Positions 17,179 through 64,000 of a stretch of DNA of 64,000 nucleotides are shown here, one piece after another. The stretch lies in the NCBI GenBank assembly GCA_964023275.1, contig OZ029914.1, positions 16,080,049 through 16,144,048 of the forward strand, given 5' to 3'. The stretch comes from Norana najaformis. Lineage: Eukaryota > Annelida > Clitellata > Crassiclitellata > Hormogastridae. Both the position numbers and the translations under genes were made by a program. Within the stretch, counting starts at the first letter, position 1. Each line of letters opens with the position of its first letter. The notes under the pieces are model-generated. The model was not told the DNA's origin and made no database searches. It saw only the letters and a program-made list of their open reading frames with translations.

Positions 17179-17800
17179 TTTTAGTAAAATAAATTAGAAT
17201 AGAATGGTTTAGTTTGACCTCAAAGAGATTGTAATAAGCTGATAAGTAAAAGGCTTCCAATGTTTTCCGCGAAGTTAAGTATGGCCTTGCTATGCGTGAC
17301 AATCTTACAACCTTACCATATGAATGGTCGTCTGATAATACAATACAATATGTGTCAAAACGCATAACTGTAATTTCAGCTTAAATGTTTTGACATTTTG
17401 AGCCTAACGCATCGTCTATAGTCCCTGTTATGGCCATACTTTCTTTTATAACACTGGATCACACGAAATATTTTTTCGCCTGCTACTAGGCATATGCTAT
17501 GTGTACTACACTAAATCGAATCTGCTGATTCCAAATCTGAAGTCAGATTTTGTGTAGCACGTCAGGATCTTAAGATATGCAGCATACATGCTAATAATTA
17601 TGCAAACTCTTTACAGAACTAGTATTTCCTTATAACTGTGTAATTATGCAAACTCAGAGTATTCATAACAAGAAACAAAATGTTATTCTTTTATAACTTG
17701 AAATTAAAATATGTTTTAAAATGTAATATAAATATATGTATGTTACTCAGATGAAAGCATACATTTCGAAATTTTGTCTCTAGCTTAACTCTATACGAGT

Positions 17801-19457
17801 TCAAAAGTGCTTTAGACACTTGCTCTTGCGCGTGTGAGTGGCCGCTGTTGCCCGCTGCAGAAACCAGCAGTAATCGCCCATCATGTTGGAATTGCAGTGG
17901 CCCTGATATCTTGCTTCAAAGGTGGAGATGTCTTGATGGAATCTCTCTCCATGCTCATCGCTTACATGACCCAAGTTTGGTGGAAAAAAATCCAGATGGG
18001 AATGTAAGAAATGTATTTTTAGTGACATCCGGCAGCCGAGTTGCTTATATGCTGTTAGCATGTTGCTAACGAGTTCAGCATAGTTCTCAGCTTGGTGATT
18101 CCCAAGGAAGTTTTGCACCACCAACGTACATGCATCCCAAGCGGCAAATTCCAGTGGGTTGAGCTTGGATCTAAATACAGTATCACGCATTAGTTCGCGG
18201 ATTTCTGGCCCAATAAAAATTCCAGCCTTCAGCTTAGCATCAGTTTTGACGGCTCCAAATTTATCTCTCAGATACTGGAAGCCTTGTCCAGTACGATCCA
18301 TTTCCACTACGAAATTCCTCATGAGGCCCAGTTTAATGTGAAGTGGTGGTAAGTACACTTTCAATGGATCAACCAATGGTTCGTGTTGCACGTTGTGCCG
18401 ACCGACAATGTGTTCAGATCTAGGAGGCCACAGTTTCACTTTGTAATGGTTGCTGTCCACAAAAAACACATATGTTTTGTGTACCCCAGCTGTAGGCCTA
18501 GAATAAGTGCTACGACTTTGAGGTCCGCACAGATGTTCCATTTGTGGTCTGAGTAGTTGATCACTTTCAAAATGAGTTTCATTGAATCATATATCTCTTT
18601 GAGGCCTACAGTGTGGGCTATAGGAACAGACGGCTTTTCGTTACCATTGTGCACCAACACAGCTTTCAAGCTCGCTTGGCTGGAATCTATGAGCAGTCTC
18701 CACTGATCAGGAACGTATTCGCAACCTAAATTCAGCATGAGACCGTTCACGTCAGTACAGAAACAGATATCATTTTCCAGTGGCTGTAATATGTAGCTAA
18801 CTGTTTGTGACGATAACGGAAGTGTGATGTTGTGGTACCTTTTTGAAGCAAGTTCCACTCCCCTAGTCTGGAGGCTAACAGTTCAGATTTCTCCTTTGAC
18901 AAAGATAGGTCCCTCACCAGATCATCTAACTCACCTTGCCTTATCAAATGCGGCCTACCCTCTTCCAAATCTTGATCACTAGATTCGTAAACAGTAACGT
19001 CATCTTCTGCATTACCATCAGAACTGTCCGTTTCATCAGCACCCGCAGCAGGCGGAAATGGTACTGGATTCTCTTCATCATGCGGCACTGGCTTTAGAGC
19101 GGACTCGCAATCAGGATAAACGATTTTAGACTTATTTTTCTTTGAAAATCCAGCAACTTTAGTAATGCAGAAATAACAGTCTGCATGATGATTTCTTGGC
19201 TCGCGCCACACCATAGGCACAGCAAACGGCATTGAATTCCTTTTGCCATTCAGCCACTGTGTAACCCCAGAGTAGCACACGGTGCAGCAGACATGAGGTG
19301 CCCAACTTTTATCCTGGTCTCCGATTTGACATCCAAAATAATACTTGTAAGCAATCATCACTCTCCTAGTTAACTTCTTGCGCTGGTCACAAAGAGTATA
19401 TTTACCACAAACATAGCAAAAATTGTCTGGATGGTTAACACAGCCTCGCCTATTCAT
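17801..19457 (-). pseudogene. Broken transposase-like gene of copy 1
   Basis: Homologous along its length to the intact 567-residue protein at 43849-45552. The start is chosen at MNRRGCVNHPDNFCYVCG, because this aligns with the starts of the other two copies. The Cys/His region is intact: FCYVC, APHVCCTVC, HHADCYFC. The reading frame shifts near 18790, just before the ENDICFC segment. It shifts again near 18461 in the CFLC-WDS motif, where about five bases are missing. The C-terminal part keeps LPPLHIKLGLMRNF, IHFLHSHLDFFP and SDEHGERFHQD. The shifts make this copy unable to encode a full protein. Confidence 0.85.
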
Positions 19458-19528
19458 TTCAAAATTAAATCTCACACACTAGCTACAGCTATAAAAGAAA
19501 ACTTAACCTTTGTTCTACTCAATCTCGC

Positions 19529-19536
19529 CTTATATA
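19529..19536 (-). promoter_or_regulatory. TATA box of transposon copy 1
   Basis: TATATAAG on minus, 72 bp before the chosen ATG and inside the element. The other two copies have TATATAAA and TATATAAAG at a similar place (43685 and 60899), which supports a promoter carried by the element. Confidence 0.55.
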
Positions 19537-20029
19537 CTGGTATTGATGCTGATGTCAGATCGCTGACATGCCCAATCATGTCTACATGTAGCGGCTGCCG
19601 CAGGCTTGCTGTTAGGAATATTTCAGGCGGCACTTGCAGGCATGCACGTATCACTGGCAGCAATCGTGGAGACACATACAACAGAATGTACAGACATAAC
19701 CGAAAACGAGTCCTTGCGTCATTACTTGAATGCATGCATAACTTAAAATCTAGACGTGCTGGGCAGATTCTGACTTCATATTTGGATACAGCACATTTGA
19801 ATCAATATAAGGCACATGCATTACTTTCAGTAGCAAAATCGTTGTGATCCAGTGTAATTTAGGAGATATCGCGTCCAATGTCTGCGCGTAGAAGAGCACC
19901 AGGTGATCAAATTAAATACATTTTCTAATTAACTAAGCACCTTAGTGACTCGGGATTGGACGAATTACTTTATGTGCGTAATTTATTAGCTTTTGGGGAC
20001 TTTTGTCGTTTGTTAACCGGCTCTGCGGC

Positions 20030-23454: not shown

Positions 23455-25395
23455 TTACTTGCTGTGGAAAGTGCCTTGGACAGGATCATTCAAGTCCGGA
23501 TAACTCTGTTCTTCGTCGTTCACTGGAATATAGAGAATTCGGTTGACCTTTCGATTTGACAACAAAGGAGTGACTCGCACATTTTGGTCTAGAACTGATT
23601 CAACAGCTGGCCTTGGGATTCGAAGTAACTTTCGTTTGTTCAGATCGCCTTCAGCTGGAAAAGGTTTCCGGAGGCCCAAATACGTGTTGTATCGTTTGCT
23701 TTGGTTATGTCCTTTCATCTGAAATTCATCAAATTCCGGCTCTAACGTACCTCCGGTTCTAACAGTAATGGAGCTTGTTTGTTTTCCTTTCTCATCAACT
23801 GGAGGTTTTCCAATTCTCCTGAATAAACTGTGAGCACTGCCTTTATCAGCAAAGGAGGGTTGCTTTCCGATTTCTGCAAAAGACGTACTTTCATTTTCCT
23901 CGTCGAAAGATGATTTGCCGATTCTAACGAAAGAGCTGGCTCGTTTTTCTTCTTCATCTATGGGTGATTTTCCAATTCTAACAAAAGAACTGGCTCGTTT
24001 CTCTTCCTCATCTATTGGTGATTTTCCAATTCTAACGAAGGAGCTGGCTCGTTTTTCTTCCTCATCTATTGGTGATTTTCCAATTCTAACAAAAGAACTG
24101 GCTCGTTTTTCTTCTTCGTCTAGTAGTGATTTTCCAATTCTAACGAAAGAGCTGGCTCGTTTCTCTTTTTCATCTATTGGTGATTTTCCAATTCTAACAA
24201 AAGAACTGGCTCGTTTTTCTTCTTCGTCTAGTGGTGATTTTCCTATTCTAACAAAAGAACTGGCTCGTTTTTCGTCTTCATCTAATGAGGATTTTCCTAT
24301 CCTAACGAAAGAACTTGCTCGTTTTTCTTCTTCGTCTAGTGGTGATTTTCCAATTCTAACGAAAGAGCTGGCTCGTTTTTCTTCTTCGTTTAGTGGTGAT
24401 TTTCCTATCCTAATGAAAGAACTTGCTCGTTTTTCTTCTTCGTCTAACGGTGATTTTCCAATTCTAACGAAAGAGCTGGCTCGTTTTTCTTCTTCGTCTA
24501 ACGGTGATTTTCCAACTCTCACGAAAGAACTGTCAGCAACCCTTTTTTCATCATTGTATTTGCGTGGCTTTGCCAGTTCTGCGAAAGGAATACTTCCATT
24601 TTCTTCATCTACTGGTGACTTTCCAATTCTAACAAAAGAACTAGCTCGTTTTGTTGTTCTTGTTCTTTTGACTTCTTGCTGATTTTGCGACGTCCCAATT
24701 CGAATGAACGAATTCGCTCTGTTGTTGTCCTTTTCTGACAGAGATTTCCTAACTCTAATTGTAGAACTCGGCATATATTCCAATTCCAGAGTCGGATCAC
24801 TGCTCGTCTCGTCTTCCTCGATTGCTTTTCTTAATCGGAAAAATGGTCCAGCCTGCCCAACGTTCGTGCGAAATGGCGTCCTCCCGATTCGGACAAATGA
24901 GCTAGCACGCTTTTGCACTTCATTTCTTGGTGACTTTCCTACCCCAAAAAGAAGATTGGGCCTTCCGATTTTCACGAAGGACAGTCCCTGACCAGTTGGA
25001 TCGTTTTCGGTCGCCTTTTTCCAGATACCCGGACTTGACCGCTTCGATAATGTACCAGATGGTGGCCAGGCTTCGTAATCATCGCCTTGGTCTCGATTTT
25101 CTTCGATGGGATCGTAATAGTCAACAGTTTTGCAGTCTGAACCATGTTCTTGCGTCACGTCTTCGTCATTTTGAAAGTAGTTCGGGATTTCGCTAGGGTA
25201 AAAATAGCCAACGTCATCCGCTGTGTCTTCATTGACTGAAGCTTCGCTGCAGGCGATGACACAATGACGGTAGTTGACGTCATCTCTCATGTAACTGCGA
25301 CATATGTTGGCACAAGCAGGATGGGAAAATCTCGTGGCTGTGCATGGACATGCGCAAACCAGTAGGACCACGAATAGTGCGGACTGCTTCGCCAT
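23455..25395 (-). CDS. FVRIamide-type neuropeptide precursor
   Basis: A 646-residue secreted precursor. Residues 1-20 form a signal peptide (hydrophobic ALFVVLLVCACPCTA). Next comes a short Cys domain (C28, C32, C45, C49) and an acidic spacer. From residue 119 there are peptides set between convertase sites. ASSFVRI followed by Gly-Lys or Gly-Arg occurs twelve times. Single variants are ASSFIRI, VADSSFVRV and GLSFVKI, and possibly SLFRRI. Gly before the basic residue predicts C-terminal amidation. From 306 to 503, eleven 18-residue units of the form ASSFVRIGKSPLDEEEKR follow head to tail. The family, FxRI/FVRIamides, is known from annelids and molluscs; action on a G-protein-coupled receptor is inferred. 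The coding part is one exon. A possible splice acceptor 17 bp before the ATG (AG at 25412-25413 on minus) suggests a 5' untranslated exon further right. Confidence 0.94.
   Translation of the reverse strand: MAKQSALFVVLLVCACPCTATRFSHPACANICRSYMRDDVNYRHCVIACSEASVNEDTADDVGYFYPSEIPNYFQNDEDVTQEHGSDCKTVDYYDPIEENRDQGDDYEAWPPSGTLSKRSSPGIWKKATENDPTGQGLSFVKIGRPNLLFGVGKSPRNEVQKRASSFVRIGRTPFRTNVGQAGPFFRLRKAIEEDETSSDPTLELEYMPSSTIRVRKSLSEKDNNRANSFIRIGTSQNQQEVKRTRTTKRASSFVRIGKSPVDEENGSIPFAELAKPRKYNDEKRVADSSFVRVGKSPLDEEEKRASSFVRIGKSPLDEEEKRASSFIRIGKSPLNEEEKRASSFVRIGKSPLDEEEKRASSFVRIGKSSLDEDEKRASSFVRIGKSPLDEEEKRASSFVRIGKSPIDEKEKRASSFVRIGKSLLDEEEKRASSFVRIGKSPIDEEEKRASSFVRIGKSPIDEEEKRASSFVRIGKSPIDEEEKRASSFVRIGKSSFDEENESTSFAEIGKQPSFADKGSAHSLFRRIGKPPVDEKGKQTSSITVRTGGTLEPEFDEFQMKGHNQSKRYNTYLGLRKPFPAEGDLNKRKLLRIPRPAVESVLDQNVRVTPLLSNRKVNRILYIPVNDEEQSYPDLNDPVQGTFHSK
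23887..24480 (-). repeat. 54-bp tandem repeat coding 11 peptide units
   Basis: Eleven in-frame 54-bp units within the neuropeptide gene. Peptide codons (ASSFVRIGK) are nearly constant between units, while the spacer codons vary (SPLDEEE, SPIDEEE, SSLDEDE, SPIDEKE, SLLDEEE). The minus-strand frame is real; the 255-residue open frame on + across the same DNA is its shadow. Confidence 0.95.
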
Positions 25396-43111: not shown

Positions 43112-43223
43112 TGAGGCCCTTGGTATCGCTTAATCGCTTAATACAACTGTGTAACTATGTACTGCTGCTCTTTTCACTGTCTAAACAGCCAGTGTTTGCT
43201 GATTAGGCTGTCGGCAAGCATTC

Positions 43224-43243
43224 TCGATCAGGTTGATAAATCA
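43224..43243. repeat. 20-bp direct repeat flanking transposon copy 2, left
   Basis: Identical to 45795-45814 over 20 bp. It lies directly outside the CACTGG end of copy 2. It may be a long target-site duplication or filler DNA from repair. Confidence 0.9.
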
Positions 43244-43684
43244 CACTGGCCAACAGAAAATTTTTTTTTTCTTGTTGCCTTCGGTTTTAGACCTGTTCTT
43301 GGGGTAATTTTGGGCGCTGATTCAGAAAATGTCATTGGATTGAGTGCATCAGGTCTAGTTTCTGAGATATCGTCGATTTTGTAAAGAAAACCCAGTCCAC
43401 TCTTTAAACGATGTCTTTGGCAAAACTAAAATGTCATAATAAGCTTTATTTATGGCTAATTATAATTCTTGCTGATTCATATAATGCCTACATCCTTATA
43501 ATGTAAAATCAGCATATCTTGCCGCGTGCTGAGATATTGCTGATTCAACGAAATAACTATTCCGTAGCCTACAGCTTACTCAGCACTAAATTCATGACCT
43601 CATTTAGAATTTATTTGTGCTTATACAGCGTTTCAGAGTTTCGAACTATGTAAATAGATTATGCTGAAGTCAGCATTTATAGCC

Positions 43685-43692
43685 TATATAAA
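43685..43692 (+). promoter_or_regulatory. TATA box of transposon copy 2
   Basis: TATATAAA, 157 bp upstream of the ATG and within the element. Matches in kind the TATA boxes of copies 1 and 3. Confidence 0.55.
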
Positions 43693-43848
43693 CCGCCTCC
43701 TGAAAGCTAGAGCAGCCGCAGTCGTCTTAGGGCATATTAAGAGTTGGTCGCAAGAACAATCTGTGAATGTGAGCATTAAATAACTACATGTTCTTACTAT
43801 TTTTTAGGTTAGTCATTTCATTCCTCCGATGCGAACATCCTTAAGGTT

Positions 43849-45552
43849 ATGGCTACTTCCAGACGGAGCTGCATTAACCATCCAGACATATTCTGCTACA
43901 TTTGTGGGGAATACACACTAAAAGCAAACAGAAAACCGATTTCTGAGTTTGTAAAAAGAGCATATGTAGGTTATTTTGGTGTCAAACTTGGAGATCAAGA
44001 TAAGCAATGGGCTCCTCATACAGTATGCAAAACTTGTATTGAACAATTGCGCCACTGGACAATTGGAAATAGAAGCTGCCTGAAATTTGGTGTACCGATG
44101 GTTTGGAGGGAACAGATAAACCACTTGGACGACTGTTACTTTTGTATGGTTAATATCATAGGCATCAATCGAAATAATCGTCACAAGTTGTCTTACCCTG
44201 ATATACCTTCAGCCAGGAGACCTGTTCCGCATTCGGATATTGTACCAGTTCCACCTTTTCGCGAACTACCTCAGCTCTCAGACGATGACACTTGCATGTC
44301 CAATATCGGACAAGATGACGAAAGTGAAGAAAGTGGGGGCAGTGACAGTGATTTCCAATCAACTTCACACAGTGAACGTTTTGACCAAAAAGAGTTGAGT
44401 GATCTGATCAGGGACTTAAATCTTTCCAAAGAGTCCTCTGAATTGCTTGCGTCCAGACTAAAGGAAAAGAATGCACTTCAGCCTGGAACGAAAATTACAA
44501 TTTATAGAAACAGAGAAAAGGATTTGCTGCCATTCTTTACCGAAGACAACAACCTAGTATTCTGTAATGACATCAGCAACTTATTGAAGAAAATTGGTCT
44601 GTCGGATTACAGCCCAGATGAGTGGCGTCTTTTTATCGACAGTTCAAAACGTAGTCTGAAATGTGTGCTTTTAAATAACGGCAACAAATTTGGTTCTATT
44701 CCAATCGGTCACTCCACCAGGATGAAAGAAGAGTACAATGCCATCTCTTTAGTACTGGAAAAGATAAAATACAAAGAACATCAATGGGTAATTTGTGTAG
44801 ACTTGAAGATGGTAAATTTCCTCCTTCGTCAACAAAGTGGCTACACAAAGCATCCCTGCTTTTTGTGTCTTTGGGACAGTAGAGCCAAGCGTGAACATTG
44901 GACAAGAAAAGATTGGCCTTCGAGGAAAGACATGGTGGTTGGAGCTCAAAATGTAATCAAGGAATCTTTGGTGGCACGAGATAGGATCATACTGCCACCA
45001 CTACATATAAAGCTAGGCCTGATGAAACAATTTGTCAGGGCTTTGAATAAAGAAGGTTCATGCTTCGAATACATAGTACACAAGTTATCAGGAATTACAA
45101 TGGAAAAATTGAAGGCTGGAATCTTCGATGGTCCACAGATCAGGCAACTTATGAATGACCCACTTTTCATACCATCAATGAATGAAATCGAATCTTGTGC
45201 CTGGTCTTCCTTTGTTCTTGTAACTAAAAATTTTCTTGGCAACAAGAAGGCAGACAATTATGCACAACTAGTAGAGGATATGCTTCTTCATTTCAACAAG
45301 CTTGGCTGCAACATGAGCATTAAAGTCCATTATCTCCACAGTCACTTAGGTCGCTTTCCAGAGAATCTTGGTGACTTCAGCGAAGAGCAAGGTGAAAGAT
45401 TTCACCAAGACATCAAAACAATGGAAAATCGATATCAAGGAAGATGGGATGCACACATGATGGCAGACTATTGCTGGAATATTATGCGCGATTGTTCCGG
45501 CAGATGCCACACTCGGAAATCGTACAAAAGGAGCTTCTTCGGTGTCGAATGA
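43849..45552 (+). CDS. Putative transposase of unrecognised superfamily, 567 aa
   Basis: Intronless, and homologous over its length to the genes at 17801-19457 and 61021-62475. Residues 1-100 hold a Cys/His pattern (C8, C16, C19, H57, C60, C63, H92, C96, C99), probably a zinc-binding, DNA-contacting module. Residues 140-180 form an acidic Ser-rich linker. The core, from 257, has LFIDSSKRSLKCVLLNNG (D264), ICVDLKMVNFLL (D318), CFLCLWDSR (C337, C340) and LPPLHIKLGLMK (H386). It ends with VHYLHSHL and SEEQGERFHQD (E513, E516). The order of conserved acidic residues and the inserted Cys/His motif resemble RNase-H-like DDE transposases; that is inference. It sits inside an element with inverted ends, which supports a transposition role. 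A domesticated host role cannot be excluded. The sequence also resembles uncharacterised multi-copy proteins of many invertebrates, from memory. Confidence 0.8.
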   Translation: MATSRRSCINHPDIFCYICGEYTLKANRKPISEFVKRAYVGYFGVKLGDQDKQWAPHTVCKTCIEQLRHWTIGNRSCLKFGVPMVWREQINHLDDCYFCMVNIIGINRNNRHKLSYPDIPSARRPVPHSDIVPVPPFRELPQLSDDDTCMSNIGQDDESEESGGSDSDFQSTSHSERFDQKELSDLIRDLNLSKESSELLASRLKEKNALQPGTKITIYRNREKDLLPFFTEDNNLVFCNDISNLLKKIGLSDYSPDEWRLFIDSSKRSLKCVLLNNGNKFGSIPIGHSTRMKEEYNAISLVLEKIKYKEHQWVICVDLKMVNFLLRQQSGYTKHPCFLCLWDSRAKREHWTRKDWPSRKDMVVGAQNVIKESLVARDRIILPPLHIKLGLMKQFVRALNKEGSCFEYIVHKLSGITMEKLKAGIFDGPQIRQLMNDPLFIPSMNEIESCAWSSFVLVTKNFLGNKKADNYAQLVEDMLLHFNKLGCNMSIKVHYLHSHLGRFPENLGDFSEEQGERFHQDIKTMENRYQGRWDAHMMADYCWNIMRDCSGRCHTRKSYKRSFFGVE

Positions 45553-45794
45553 CTTGAAATTTTTATAACAAACTTGTTCTGTTTGGTATCATATAAGTAC
45601 AGTTTCAGGTACTACCATTTTCTTTTAAGTATTTGTATTATTATGTTTATTTAGTGTATCACATAATAAATTGAGCACTACATAATTATAGCTATAGCCT
45701 TATGTTTTATGGGCGAGCAGAGGCAAGGACTGGTATATGGCATAATGTTCTATATCTCGAAAACTAGACCTGCTGGGAGAAAACTGGTGCCTTT

Positions 45795-45814
45795 TCGATC
45801 AGGTTGATAAATCA
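45795..45814. repeat. 20-bp direct repeat flanking transposon copy 2, right
   Basis: Partner of 43224-43243. Its first bases (TCGATCAG) also fit the inner inverted repeat of the element, so the true junction may lie inside this repeat. Confidence 0.9.
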
Positions 45815-45924
45815 TCATTTAAACTGGTTGAGGATCTCACAGTCATCTTGCCTGTCGATGACATTACAAAGTAAAACATACCCAATCAATGAAGGAACAA
45901 AACTGTGGTTAACATATCAATAAA

Positions 45925-56245: not shown

Positions 56246-57263
56246 TCACCTTGTGCTGTCAGCTCTTTGAGCTCTAGCGACCGTCATGATCAATCCTCTC
56301 CATTTCTTTCTTTCCAATGTCGCGTCCCTTAGCTGTGCCAAGTTCATTCCAGTTGCTTCGTGTATCTTGTCCATCCATTTTGTCCTTGGCCTCCCTTGTT
56401 TTCTCTTTCCCTCTCCACAAGCCAGCATCATTTCCTTTTCCAATCCATCTGATCTCATAATATGACCAAAGAACCTCAGCTTTGATTTTAGCATTGTTTG
56501 TTGTAACGTTTCATCTTGCTCAATTCCGATCGTCATGCGTACCCATTCATTTGTCCTTTTCTCCGTCCATGATGTTCTCAGCATCTTCCTCCATATCCAC
56601 ATTTCACAAGCATTGATTTTTTTTCTCCATTTTCTTGGTCATTGTCCACGTCTCACTGCCGTATGTTACTGTTGGTATGATCAAGGCCCTCACCAATCTT
56701 TTTTTCGTGTCTGTGCTCACATGTTTGTCTTTCCATATTTTTTCTAGTCCATTCATTGCGGCTTTTCCAATCGCCACCCTGCGGTTTATTTCCATATCGC
56801 ACTTTCCTTCTCTTTCTACTACTGATCCCAAGAATGTAAAGCTTGTTACCGTCTCTAGTTCCTCTCCATCCACCGTAAAACTGCCTTTCTCAGCTGTTGT
56901 CATGATCTTCGTTTTCTTTACATTGAAGTATAGTCCTGCTTTCTCGCTCTCTCTCTTCAGCCTTCTTATCAGTTCTGCCAGGTCTGTTTTTTTGCCTGCT
57001 AATAGTGTTGTGTCGTCTGCGTATCTCAGATTATTCAGTGTTCTTCCCGCTATCTTTACTCCCTCTTTTGCTCCATCCATTTCCGCCATCCTCATTATCC
57101 TCTCTGCATATAGGTTAAATAGGAATGGGGACAGAATGCATCCCTGCCTCACTCCTTTCTTTATTTTGATTCTTTCGGTATCTCCAAATTCAGTTCTTGG
57201 TATTACCGACCGTAAACAGGACATTTTCGATGACGCCGTTTGGGCGCCGGGAGTACAACCCAT
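56246..57263 (-). pseudogene. RTE-like LINE reverse transcriptase, 5' truncated
   Basis: Two open frames on minus (57263-56604 and 56602-56246) together form the second half of a LINE reverse transcriptase. Motifs are IKKGVRQGCILSPFLFNLYA, NNLRYADDTTLLA (catalytic Asp pair), VTSFTFLGSVV and TVTYGSETWT. The second frame gives the C-terminal MLKSKLRFFGHIMRSD and KRKQGRPRTKWMDKI blocks. The frames part at a run of eight T on + (56617-56624), one base longer than continuity needs. The endonuclease and the N-terminal reverse transcriptase part are absent. The clade, RTE or a relative, is judged from motif wording only. Confidence 0.88.
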
Positions 57264-60571: not shown

Positions 60572-62475
60572 CACTGGTCAACATAGAAATCGTTACTGAC
60601 TGGAAAAGGCCCTAATGTGTAGCATCTTGGTGTGCTGAACACGAATATAACCATAAAAATTTTTTATTGGCTCTCGTTTTGAAAATGTTTCATATAGTTC
60701 ATTTTTTATGTTTCACCATGTAAATTTATGCAGTAGGACTGCGACAATATCCTAAATAAGTCTAGAATGATGTAATATTCCACCTCATTGCATAATCCCA
60801 TCATGGACACATCATGCACAGTTGATTACTTCATTTTCTGATATAATGTAAAACTACAGCCAGTCGGCTGCTGACGTAAGATGACGTCAGCAGTGTACTA
60901 TATAAAGCGAGTCGGAACGGTTGAGCATTTACAATATTACAGACTTTGTGCGAGACAGTTTAAGTTACTGTTTTATAAAACTATTATTACTTTATCCATT
61001 AGATACAATACAGAACAGTAATGCCTCGGAAGTGCGTAAATACTGTGGACAACTTTTGTTACATTTGTGGGGAAGTGACATTTGCCAACCAGAAGAAAAG
61101 TATCACTTATCAAGTCAAGAAGGCATATCATGCTTACTTCGAATGCAAGGTTGGTGACCAAGACAAGCCATGGGCCCCGCATATATGCTGTGCTACATAT
61201 ACAACACAGCTTTCACAGTGGTTGAATGGCAAAAGACCATCAATGCCGTTTGCAGTTCCCATGGTGTGGAGAGAGCAAAGCAACCACGTAGATGACTGTT
61301 ACTTCTGCTTGGTTCCTCCTCTTTCCGGTGGAATAACGAAGCAAAAGAAGTCGACAATAGTCTACCCAAACATTCCGTCAGCATTGAGACCAGTTCCATA
61401 TGGTGATGGACTTCCTATTCCAGAACCTCCAGCAGAATATATTTTCCTTGATTCATCTGATGAGGACAAGGGTGAGCCGACATGTTCTTCTCCTGGTCCG
61501 TCAGCGTGCAGTGATCCCGATTTTCACTGTGGTGCATCATCAACCCCACACAGAATGACACAGGAAGAACTAAATGACCTTGTTTGTGATTTGGACTTAT
61601 CCAAAAACAAGGCAGAATTGCTAGGATCAAGACTCCAACAATGGAATCTTCTAGAAGAAGATGTCACAATTACTTCATGTAGAAAGCGCCATCAGCAGTT
61701 GGAACCTTTCTTTATGAAGGAAGGTAATCTGGTATTCTGTTCCAATATTGACGACCTCATGAATGCCTTACAGATCACTCATGACCCACAAGAATGGAGA
61801 CTCTTTGTAGACTCTTCAACACTGAGTCTTAAGGCTGTGCTTTTGCACAATGGAAACCGTCTTCCATCTATTCCATTAGCGCATGCTGTCCACATGAAAG
61901 AGACATACGATAACCTAAAACAGCTACTGCATTCCATTGACTATAACAGGTACAAATGGCACCTGTGTGGTGATTTGAAGGTAGTTGCCATTTTAATGGG
62001 ACTGCAGCAAGGATATACAAAATATATGTGTTTCTTGTGTGAGTGGGATAGCCGAGCAAGAGAGTTGCACTACGTGCGGAAGGAATGGACTCCCAGACAA
62101 AACATGGCAGTTGGACAGAAGAATATCCAGCACCCAGCTCTGGTCGAGGCTCACAAAATCCTACTACCACCCCTTCACATCAAACTAGGTTTGGTGAAGA
62201 ACTTCGTGAAAGCCATGGACCGCACTTCGCCAGCTTTCCGATACCTGCATGAAAAATTCCCTCGACTCAGCGAAGCAAAGATTAAAGAGGGAGTTTTTGT
62301 GGGTCCTCAGATTAGAGAACTCTTCAAAGATGACCGCTTCAACAACTTGCTGGAGGGTGATGCGAAACAAGCATGGAATGCTTTTCGTCTAGTGTCTACA
62401 GACTTTCTGGGGAATGTTAGGGCAGAAAACTACAAGGAACTAGTAGAAGACATGCTCAAGCAGTACCAGAAATTT
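60572..62475 (+). mobile_element. CACTGG-end DNA transposon, copy 3, 3' part lost, nested in a LINE
   Basis: The left end CACTGGTCAACATAGAAAT matches the other copies. Further in, GGTGTGCTGAACACGAATAT corresponds to the GCTGATTCC part of the inverted repeat. The match to the other copies stops inside the gene at about 62475, where LINE sequence resumes. The right inverted repeat is absent. Confidence 0.82.
60868..60907 (+). promoter_or_regulatory. CRE-containing inverted repeat and TATA box of copy 3
   Basis: CTGCTGACGT (60868-60877) and ACGTCAGCAG (60884-60893) are exact inverted arms. The right one completes TGACGTCA, a consensus cAMP response element. TATATAAAG follows at 60899. The ATG is 114 bp past the TATA box. 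Confidence 0.55.
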
Positions 62476-62598
62476 CGCATCATCATTGGCCCGAGAATCT
62501 TGAGATTCGATAGGAAAAAGAAGGCTTATCGCCTCCTAAACCGCCCTCTTTTCTCCGAGTTTAGGTCTATCTTGGAGGTCTTTGCAGTTGTCAAATGA
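61021..62598 (+). pseudogene. Transposase-like gene of copy 3, fused to LINE sequence
   Basis: A 525-residue open frame. Residues 1 to about 485 align with the 567-residue protein of copy 2: FCYICG, PMVWREQSNHVDDCYFC, WRLFVDSSTLSLKAVLLHNG, CGDLKVVAILMG, CFLCEWDSRAR and LPPLHIKLGLVKNF. The last 40 residues (FRIIIGPRI to FAVVK) are LINE endonuclease sequence read in the same frame by chance. The C-terminal LHSHL and SEE.GERFHQD region, with the proposed catalytic Glu, is gone. One Cys of the N-terminal zinc pattern is Tyr (residue 60, APHICCATY). So it is open but probably inactive as an enzyme. It keeps its own TATA box. It could act as a DNA-binding remnant, though nothing shows that. Confidence 0.82.
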
Positions 62599-62665
62599 TT
62601 ATTACTTGCGACTTGAATATTCACCTCGAGGATGGCTCCTCGCTGGATATAGTCCAACTCCTGGT
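62475..62665 (+). mobile_element. LINE endonuclease, continuation after the insertion
   Basis: Reads FRIIIGPRI, then LFSEFRSILEVFAVVK, and after a stop IITCDLNIHLEDGSSLDIVQ, the GDxNIH-type endonuclease block. It fits directly onto the frame ending at 60571. The LINE then breaks off. 62665-63000 shows no clear feature. Confidence 0.72.
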
Positions 62666-63039
62666 GAGAAAATGCTCAAAAGCATGAAAAAATCTAAGCT
62701 ATTTACAAAATGAGCAGGAAGACAAGATAATTTATTTGCCCAAAAATTTTTACAAATTTGAGACATCGATAATTTTATTAAAACTTTTAATAGAATGTTA
62801 TTAACTCAATGCTTTAAATAAGTGGTTAGACTGCTATTCGAATTTTAGGCTTTGTTACTCAGAAAAGCGTTTTGCGACAGAAAATAAGAATATACATTTT
62901 GAGAAAAGCAAATTTTTGGCAGAATGCAAGAATTCTGTACAAAAGAAACAAAGGACAAACCAAAATAGCAGAAATGCAGCAGCAGCTTTCGTACCTCGCA
63001 TCTTTTCGCTCAGAGACTGAAGAGTTTCTGAAGACTGTT

Positions 63040-63240
63040 CTAGATCCATTCGAGTACGACAGTGGCGGAGCTTTGGTCGTTGGTATTCTTCGGTTTTGTC
63101 TGATACCCGGCCTCTTGCGGAATGAACTGCACTGGTTACCGATGGAAGGGCATCGAGTTTCAAATTTTGATGCTTATGCGTAATTATTTTGCAGCCGGAG
63201 GCGCTAGGTAAATATGTGATTAGAATTACAATTACATTTA
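63040..63240 (+). mobile_element. LINE C-terminal fragment with ATTACA tail
   Basis: LHWLPMEGHRVSNFDAYA is close to the LHWLPV...RI.FKI block of LINE proteins. It is followed by GAGGCGCTAGGTAAATATG and AATTACAATTACA. The middle of the reverse transcriptase is missing. It may be the 3' end of the LINE interrupted at 60572. Confidence 0.6.
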
Positions 63241-63429
63241 ACTAGATAATGGTTTTAACTCTTGTATCTCATGAAGAATTATCAAGACGAATGAGTTTGG
63301 CTGCGTTTTCGTTCGTAGGCCTACTTAATTCGATAGCTTACACAATATTGTCTACTAGCCGGTGCCATCTTATCACAGGAAGTTATTTGACTATGTCTCA
63401 TCCATTCATAGCCGTGGATCCTTTCATTC

Positions 63430-63692
63430 GGCTGTTAGGATGATCTGATCTGGCATCGTGGCAGTTCAGGCCCACCGCACTTAAGCTTCGCTGTTTTTGG
63501 TCCAAATCTGTGAAATTAATTTGTTTTCCTAGCACCCAAAGGCATGACCTCCTTGACATTTCTTTACCCCTATGCCGTAAGCGCTTGAAAAACATTTTGT
63601 TTGATCGTCGTTTTGTATTGTCAGCTCTAAAGAGCCTCTGATGAGTCTCTGTTGAAGATGCGCTATATAAATCTGTGATTACAATTACAACT
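63430..63692 (+). mobile_element. LINE 3' end module
   Basis: Ends AGAGCCTCTGATGAGTCTC, GATGCGCTATATAAATCTGT, GATTACAATTACAACTG. The protein part is too decayed to read with confidence. Confidence 0.6.
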
Positions 63693-63932
63693 GCAATAAA
63701 ATACGCGGTGGTTCGAACTCTTGTGCCTCATGAAAAATTGTCGAAGTGATTCAGTTTGAATGCGTTTTTGTTCATACTTAACTCTATACATTTTGTTTTA
63801 CTAATTCCCACGATCAGCGAACTTACAAAAAAAGCAAACTTATAAAACTACACGTCGTACAAATGCCCAAGCCTTTCTTTGGAATTGCGATAAGTGGGCC
63901 TAGTTAGTTACAGCAATTTTCTCTTTAATATT

Positions 63933-64000
63933 CACTGGCCAACACATAATTTGTTGCCTCAAATGTTAGAGCTGTTTCTGGGTATATTTGACCTGCTGAT
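63933..64000 (+). mobile_element. Left end of a fourth CACTGG transposon, cut by the window
   Basis: CACTGGCCAACACATAATTT, then TTAGAGCTGTTTCTGGGTAT and GACCTGCTGAT. It follows the left end of copy 2 position by position (CACTGGCCAACAG, TTAGACCTGTTCTTGGGGTA, GGCGCTGAT). The rest lies beyond 64000. Confidence 0.75.

Follow-up and report, generated by a model that had tools for sequence, protein, structure and literature searches.

Chapaev3 elements form a group within the CMC/RAG1-related transposons. The termini of EnSpm/CACTA elements, by comparison, read CACTA, and Transib elements and RAG1 have a target duplication of 5 bp. The sections used here of the published Chapaev3 account (PMC4079192) give as hallmarks the ends CAC..GTG, a TWA target duplication between A and T (present in all of the Chapaev3 elements examined in that study) and the transposase motifs C(2)C, LH and H(4)H, and they describe most Chapaev3 transposases as single-exon. 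Among the elements in these sections are Merrow (2,451–2,455 bp; combined exons, 562 aa) and Garfield (2,289 bp; combined exons, 556 aa). As the species in the legend of its Fig. 1 include Helobdella and Aplysia, the same part of the account also makes the presence of Chapaev in lophotrochozoans already known. A zinc domain, Chapa, is reported for both Chapaev and Chapaev3 in the relevant part of PMC4411706, and the part of PMC12730594 used here describes a CMCT clade with CA..TG ends and the C(2)C and H(3-4)H motifs, and the motifs that this clade has in common with RAG1.

We compared these descriptions with elements in a 64-kb window, that is, the whole stretch of DNA that was analysed, and with their relatives in the same genome. 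Three homologous transposase genes lie in the window in both orientations, each within an element that starts with CACTGG (see table), as the first-pass annotation had proposed. That annotation took them for copies of one diverged family, four in all; they are instead three families with 48–55% protein identity. The 557-aa and 563-aa proteins are 48–50% identical to the 567-aa protein and their mutual identity is about 55%, and in each family the transposase is a single open frame (567 aa, 563 aa and 557 aa). Full copies are 2,341 bp in length in the E3 family (L079) and about 2.4 kb in the E1 family (L082 and L083, which encode 557-aa proteins), and the inverted ends can be aligned in one full copy from each of the three families. 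The flanks of these copies are ATAA/TAAT in both L079 and L082 and ATTA/TTAT in L083; those of E1 itself, in element orientation, are A-TTA on the left and TTA-T on the right, and its sub-terminal inverted repeat is identical at 77 of 103 positions. E3 can be aligned with L079 over 1,912 bp (98.5% identity), up to 62478. From 62478 to 63932, after the break in E3, other sequence follows, of which a stretch at about 63560–63700 recurs elsewhere in the window and in the fetched loci. The fourth end, which had been noticed at the edge of the window, is the tip of a full reverse-oriented copy of the E2 family; fetched from the genome, this copy (L031) has both ends and is 99.4% identical to L004 over 2,626 aligned bp.

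Coordinates of transposon features and neighbouring features in the 64-kb window
Feature	Position	Strand	Details
Element E1, 557-aa family	17452–19854	-	Both ends present (CACTGGATCACA..TGTGATCCAGTG), gene broken; CACTGG left end at 19854, right end at 17452 matches the left end
E1 transposase gene, broken	17804–19472	-	Matched by tblastn in three pieces, three frames: 19454–18783, 18777–18439, 18481–17822
646-aa open frame	23455–25395	-	11 repeated KRASSFVRIGKS units
TCA, putative left-hand duplicate of the 3-bp target site	43241–43243	+	A precedes it
Element E2, 567-aa family	43244–45796	+	CACTGG left end intact (CACTGGCCAAC at 43244), right-most part missing
E2 transposase gene	43849–45552	+	567 aa, one open frame
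Left-flank repeat replacing the right terminus of E2	45797–45817	+	18 bp (= 43226–43243), then a second TCA
Reverse transcriptase fragment	56604–57263	-	Pfam RVT_1, E 1.9e-18
Element E3, 563-aa family	60572–62478	+	Left end A-TTA followed by CACTGG at 60572; right side truncated
E3 transposase gene	61021–62475	+	C-terminal part missing, cut on the 3' side; L079 carries a full-length relative (563 aa)
Element E4, right end of a full-length E2-family copy	63933–64000	-	Continues beyond the window

To define the ends of the 567-aa family, we searched the genome (608 Mb in 17 contigs) and collected 78 loci: the 77 that scored best against the window protein among 6,399 candidates, and L031, a full copy that the list of 77 had missed. 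Both ends are present in 59 loci, the left end only in 8 and the right end only in 11, and flank counts refer to the 59 two-ended copies, with the 19 one-ended loci excluded. The left end is CAC in 59/59 of these copies (CACTGG in 58, CACTGT in 1), the right end is GTG in 56/59 and the length is exactly 2,625 bp in 29/59. The 3 bp on either side are identical in 45 and not identical in 14; ATWA stands on the left of 41 copies and TWAT on the right of 37. Across the genome, ATWA precedes 892 of the 1,299 exact right ends and is absent at 407 (reversed control, 0); this count leaves out right ends altered within the pattern. When the joined flanks of the 59 copies were searched against the window and the loci retrieved, 3 had matches elsewhere that span the junction; those of L022 (78%) and L057 (69%) align unbroken to diverged empty repeats (2/59), and the match of L010 was discounted as simple repeat only. 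The two-ended copies bear out the proposal of a DNA transposon whose ends are consistently CACTGG and which duplicates its target; they give the ends as CAC/GTG and the duplication as 3 bp. In a few copies (L021, L027 and L031) one additional A separates the terminal GTG from the flank, perhaps brought from an earlier site.

The transposases share a set of residues that is invariant in all four aligned proteins: D264, D318, C337, C340, L385-H386, H494, H499, E513 and E516. These include a C(2)C motif (C337-x2-C340), an LH motif (L385-H386) and an H(4)H motif (H494-x4-H499), and D264, D318, E513 and E516 are candidate DDE residues. The string D-x18-C-x2-C..LH..H-x4-H..E, with a D-to-C spacing that was fixed in advance from RAG1, was recovered in none of 20,000 column shuffles, 110 of which contained the first part of the string by itself, and the same string is found in the mouse RAG1 core. 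Towards the N terminus, C16, C19, H57, C60, C63, H92, C96 and C99 are also invariant in the four proteins, a pattern that would fit a Chapa zinc domain and that may resemble the 'Chapa' domain of RAG1.

The first-pass annotation had assigned the 567-aa protein to no superfamily, and a sequence-level search matches it to no established transposase in Pfam or the PDB. The Pfam profile search returned sub-threshold matches only, to zf-AD (E = 0.006, residues 16–70), DZR_2 (0.03), PRKCSH-like (0.04) and Retrotrans_gag (0.11), and the PDB search nothing save a spurious match to RNA polymerase. Relatives of the protein were sought in viral contigs and prokaryote genomes and none was confirmed. A profile relation to RAG1 was also tried and was not demonstrated: hhalign against the mouse RAG1 core gave a probability of 2.8% and aligned other regions instead of the catalytic residues. 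The score was 15.3, the highest among 100 shuffles was 9.6 and the reversed sequence scored 2.4; the comparison has little power because the profile is shallow (Neff = 1.6).

Set beside the published descriptions, the ends, the TWA duplication between A and T, the C(2)C, LH and H(4)H motifs and the single exon make it very probable that three families of the Chapaev3 group are represented here and that they are autonomous DNA transposons of the cut-and-paste type. In common with Merrow and Garfield, as given in the sections of PMC4079192 used here, they have CAC..GTG ends, the TWA duplication, the motifs and a transposase of about 560 aa, and their size of 2.3–2.6 kb is shared with Chapaev3 elements described there. 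The same sections give Merrow and Garfield two exons, whereas the genes here have a single exon, as in most other Chapaev3 elements. EnSpm/CACTA and Mirage, in the relevant part of PMC12730594, likewise have CA..TG ends and the C(2)C and H(3-4)H motifs, but the elements here differ from EnSpm/CACTA in their CACTGG ends and TWA duplication, and the protein has no match to the Pfam CACTA transposase. They share the motif string with RAG1 and differ from Transib and RAG1 in the 3-bp duplication and in the lack of a significant profile match. The claim that the protein belongs to no known superfamily fails, because its motif set, ends and target preference are those published for Chapaev3; the elements would be new families of an already known kind, and the claim of a new superfamily does not stand.

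An alternative is that the elements represent a CMC-type lineage sister to Chapaev3, with the same chemistry and ends on a separate, superfamily-level branch. The protein rises above the threshold in neither of the libraries searched (Pfam and PDB) and membership was judged from hallmarks rather than from a tree, both of which this alternative would accommodate; however, every Chapaev3 hallmark decided here matches, including TWA between A and T as described in the sections of PMC4079192 used here. We therefore consider a sister lineage improbable and retain the assignment to Chapaev3.

The right side of E2 calls for a separate account. An intact right terminus had been placed near 45800, but the element sequence stops at 45796, beyond which full copies run on as TGGAATCAGC...GGCCAGTG. 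In its place, the left flank is repeated: 43218–43243 and 45789–45814 are identical at 24 of 26 positions (blastn). One explanation is that this direct repeat of 18–26 bp is a true target duplication and that the family makes long duplications. Although 24 of 26 bases match on both sides of the copy at 43244, that copy is without the right end that other copies have, and in the 59 two-ended copies, with 10 bases compared per side, the two flanks mostly have about 3 bases in common, right beside the element. Long duplication at 43244, absent beside the other two-ended copies, was rejected as very unlikely. The repeat at 45797–45817 looks like an excision scar or the product of faulty gap repair, and the simplest reading of this one case is that an occupied copy has been joined to an excised site that retains both TCA trinucleotides. 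TCA flanks the copy at 43244, whereas TWA is the commoner form genome-wide.

The remaining alternative, that these are host multicopy genes spread by segmental duplication and that CACTGG is coincidental, draws on the just moderate enrichment of CACTGG alone in the window (38 sites; shuffle mean, 22.2; maximum, 31; 100 shuffles), but we reject it as extremely improbable: homology ends at CACTGG/CCAGTG, and two-ended copies with unrelated flanks and 3-bp duplications occur by the dozen on many contigs. CACTGG by itself is a modest signal; the extended ATWACACTGG occurs 3 times in the window, all at element ends, and 100 first-order simulations average 0.24 occurrences.

The 567-aa Chapaev3-type family is a recent burst in an animal genome, with many near-identical, apparently intact copies. 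One internal 30-mer of this family has 1,393 exact matches in the 608-Mb genome, and one internal 30-mer of the E3 family has 941, counts that skip every copy altered within the pattern. Contig 1 was sampled for its first 40 right ends (right rather than left ends): 32 have the internal 30-mer at a distance of 839–854 bases, as in full copies, and 8 are without it; most of the sampled right ends therefore belong to copies that retain this part of the gene and not to short derivatives. Within the same stretch of contig 1, 15 of 47 matches to the internal 30-mer are without an exact right end. All 78 gene copies of the E2 family are 1,701 bases in length and align ungapped, with a median pairwise difference of 6; these copies, chosen by similarity, depart from the commonest base at a mean of 3.19 of the 1,701 positions. 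Internal stops occur in 2 of the 78 and the other 76 have none. Because the loci were picked by their similarity to the window protein, the sample is biased towards young and intact copies, in divergence as well as in the proportion of open frames. At a neutral rate of 1–5 × 10−9 per site per year, a divergence of 0.19% would correspond to roughly 0.4–2 million years for the 567-aa family, again for a sample that leans young.

For the E3 family, 88 scored places, the best of several thousand candidates, are 98–100% identical in protein. In the E1 family, 150 scored places (also the best of several thousand candidates) are 94–100% identical over 201 aa, and those other than the window copy are 94–98% identical, which suggests that this family is older or has been active for longer. 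The first-pass annotation had described long activity rather than one burst. For the main element this is wrong, because three families were taken as one, and the 3.19 differences per 1,701 bases fit a recent burst of the 567-aa family; it may hold for the family with a gene at 17.8–19.5 kb. The 1,393 and 941 internal matches, together with the low divergence, indicate that two diverged families amplified very recently. We regard as evenly balanced the broader proposition that at least two, and perhaps three, roughly half-identical Chapaev3 families have been amplifying near-simultaneously as autonomous copies and that the 567-aa family retains its mobility.

What stands out is how many and how young the autonomous-looking copies are, and that diverged families occur together. 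No title on a Chapaev3 burst of comparable size was found among the titles searched; a paper on Octopus repeats reportedly contains the word Chapaev. The largest copy numbers in Table 1 of PMC4079192, within the parts examined, are 281 (for the non-autonomous ConanN2_AC) and more than 254 (Merrow_PM), compared with 1,393 exact internal matches for one family here.

The transposase is predicted to bind the element ends, probably through its Cys/His-rich N-terminal part, and to have a C-terminal DDE core that contains the putative zinc motifs C(2)C and H(4)H. It would excise the element at CAC/GTG, and insertion at ATWAT would generate the 3-bp TWA duplication. The near-identical open copies with clean ends make excision and insertion directly testable. 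If the families are indeed amplifying and the 567-aa family is mobile, an active transposase from a RAG1-related branch would be naturally available in this genome. Why related transposons expand together within a single host is a question to which the near-simultaneous spread of diverged families is also relevant.

Two further features lie near the elements in the window. The 646-aa open frame at 23455–25395 is one that we take to be, probably, a precursor of FVRIamide-type neuropeptides; it suggests a lophotrochozoan host, and papers found for this peptide deal with molluscs and annelids. The reverse transcriptase fragment at 56604–57263 probably belongs to a LINE.
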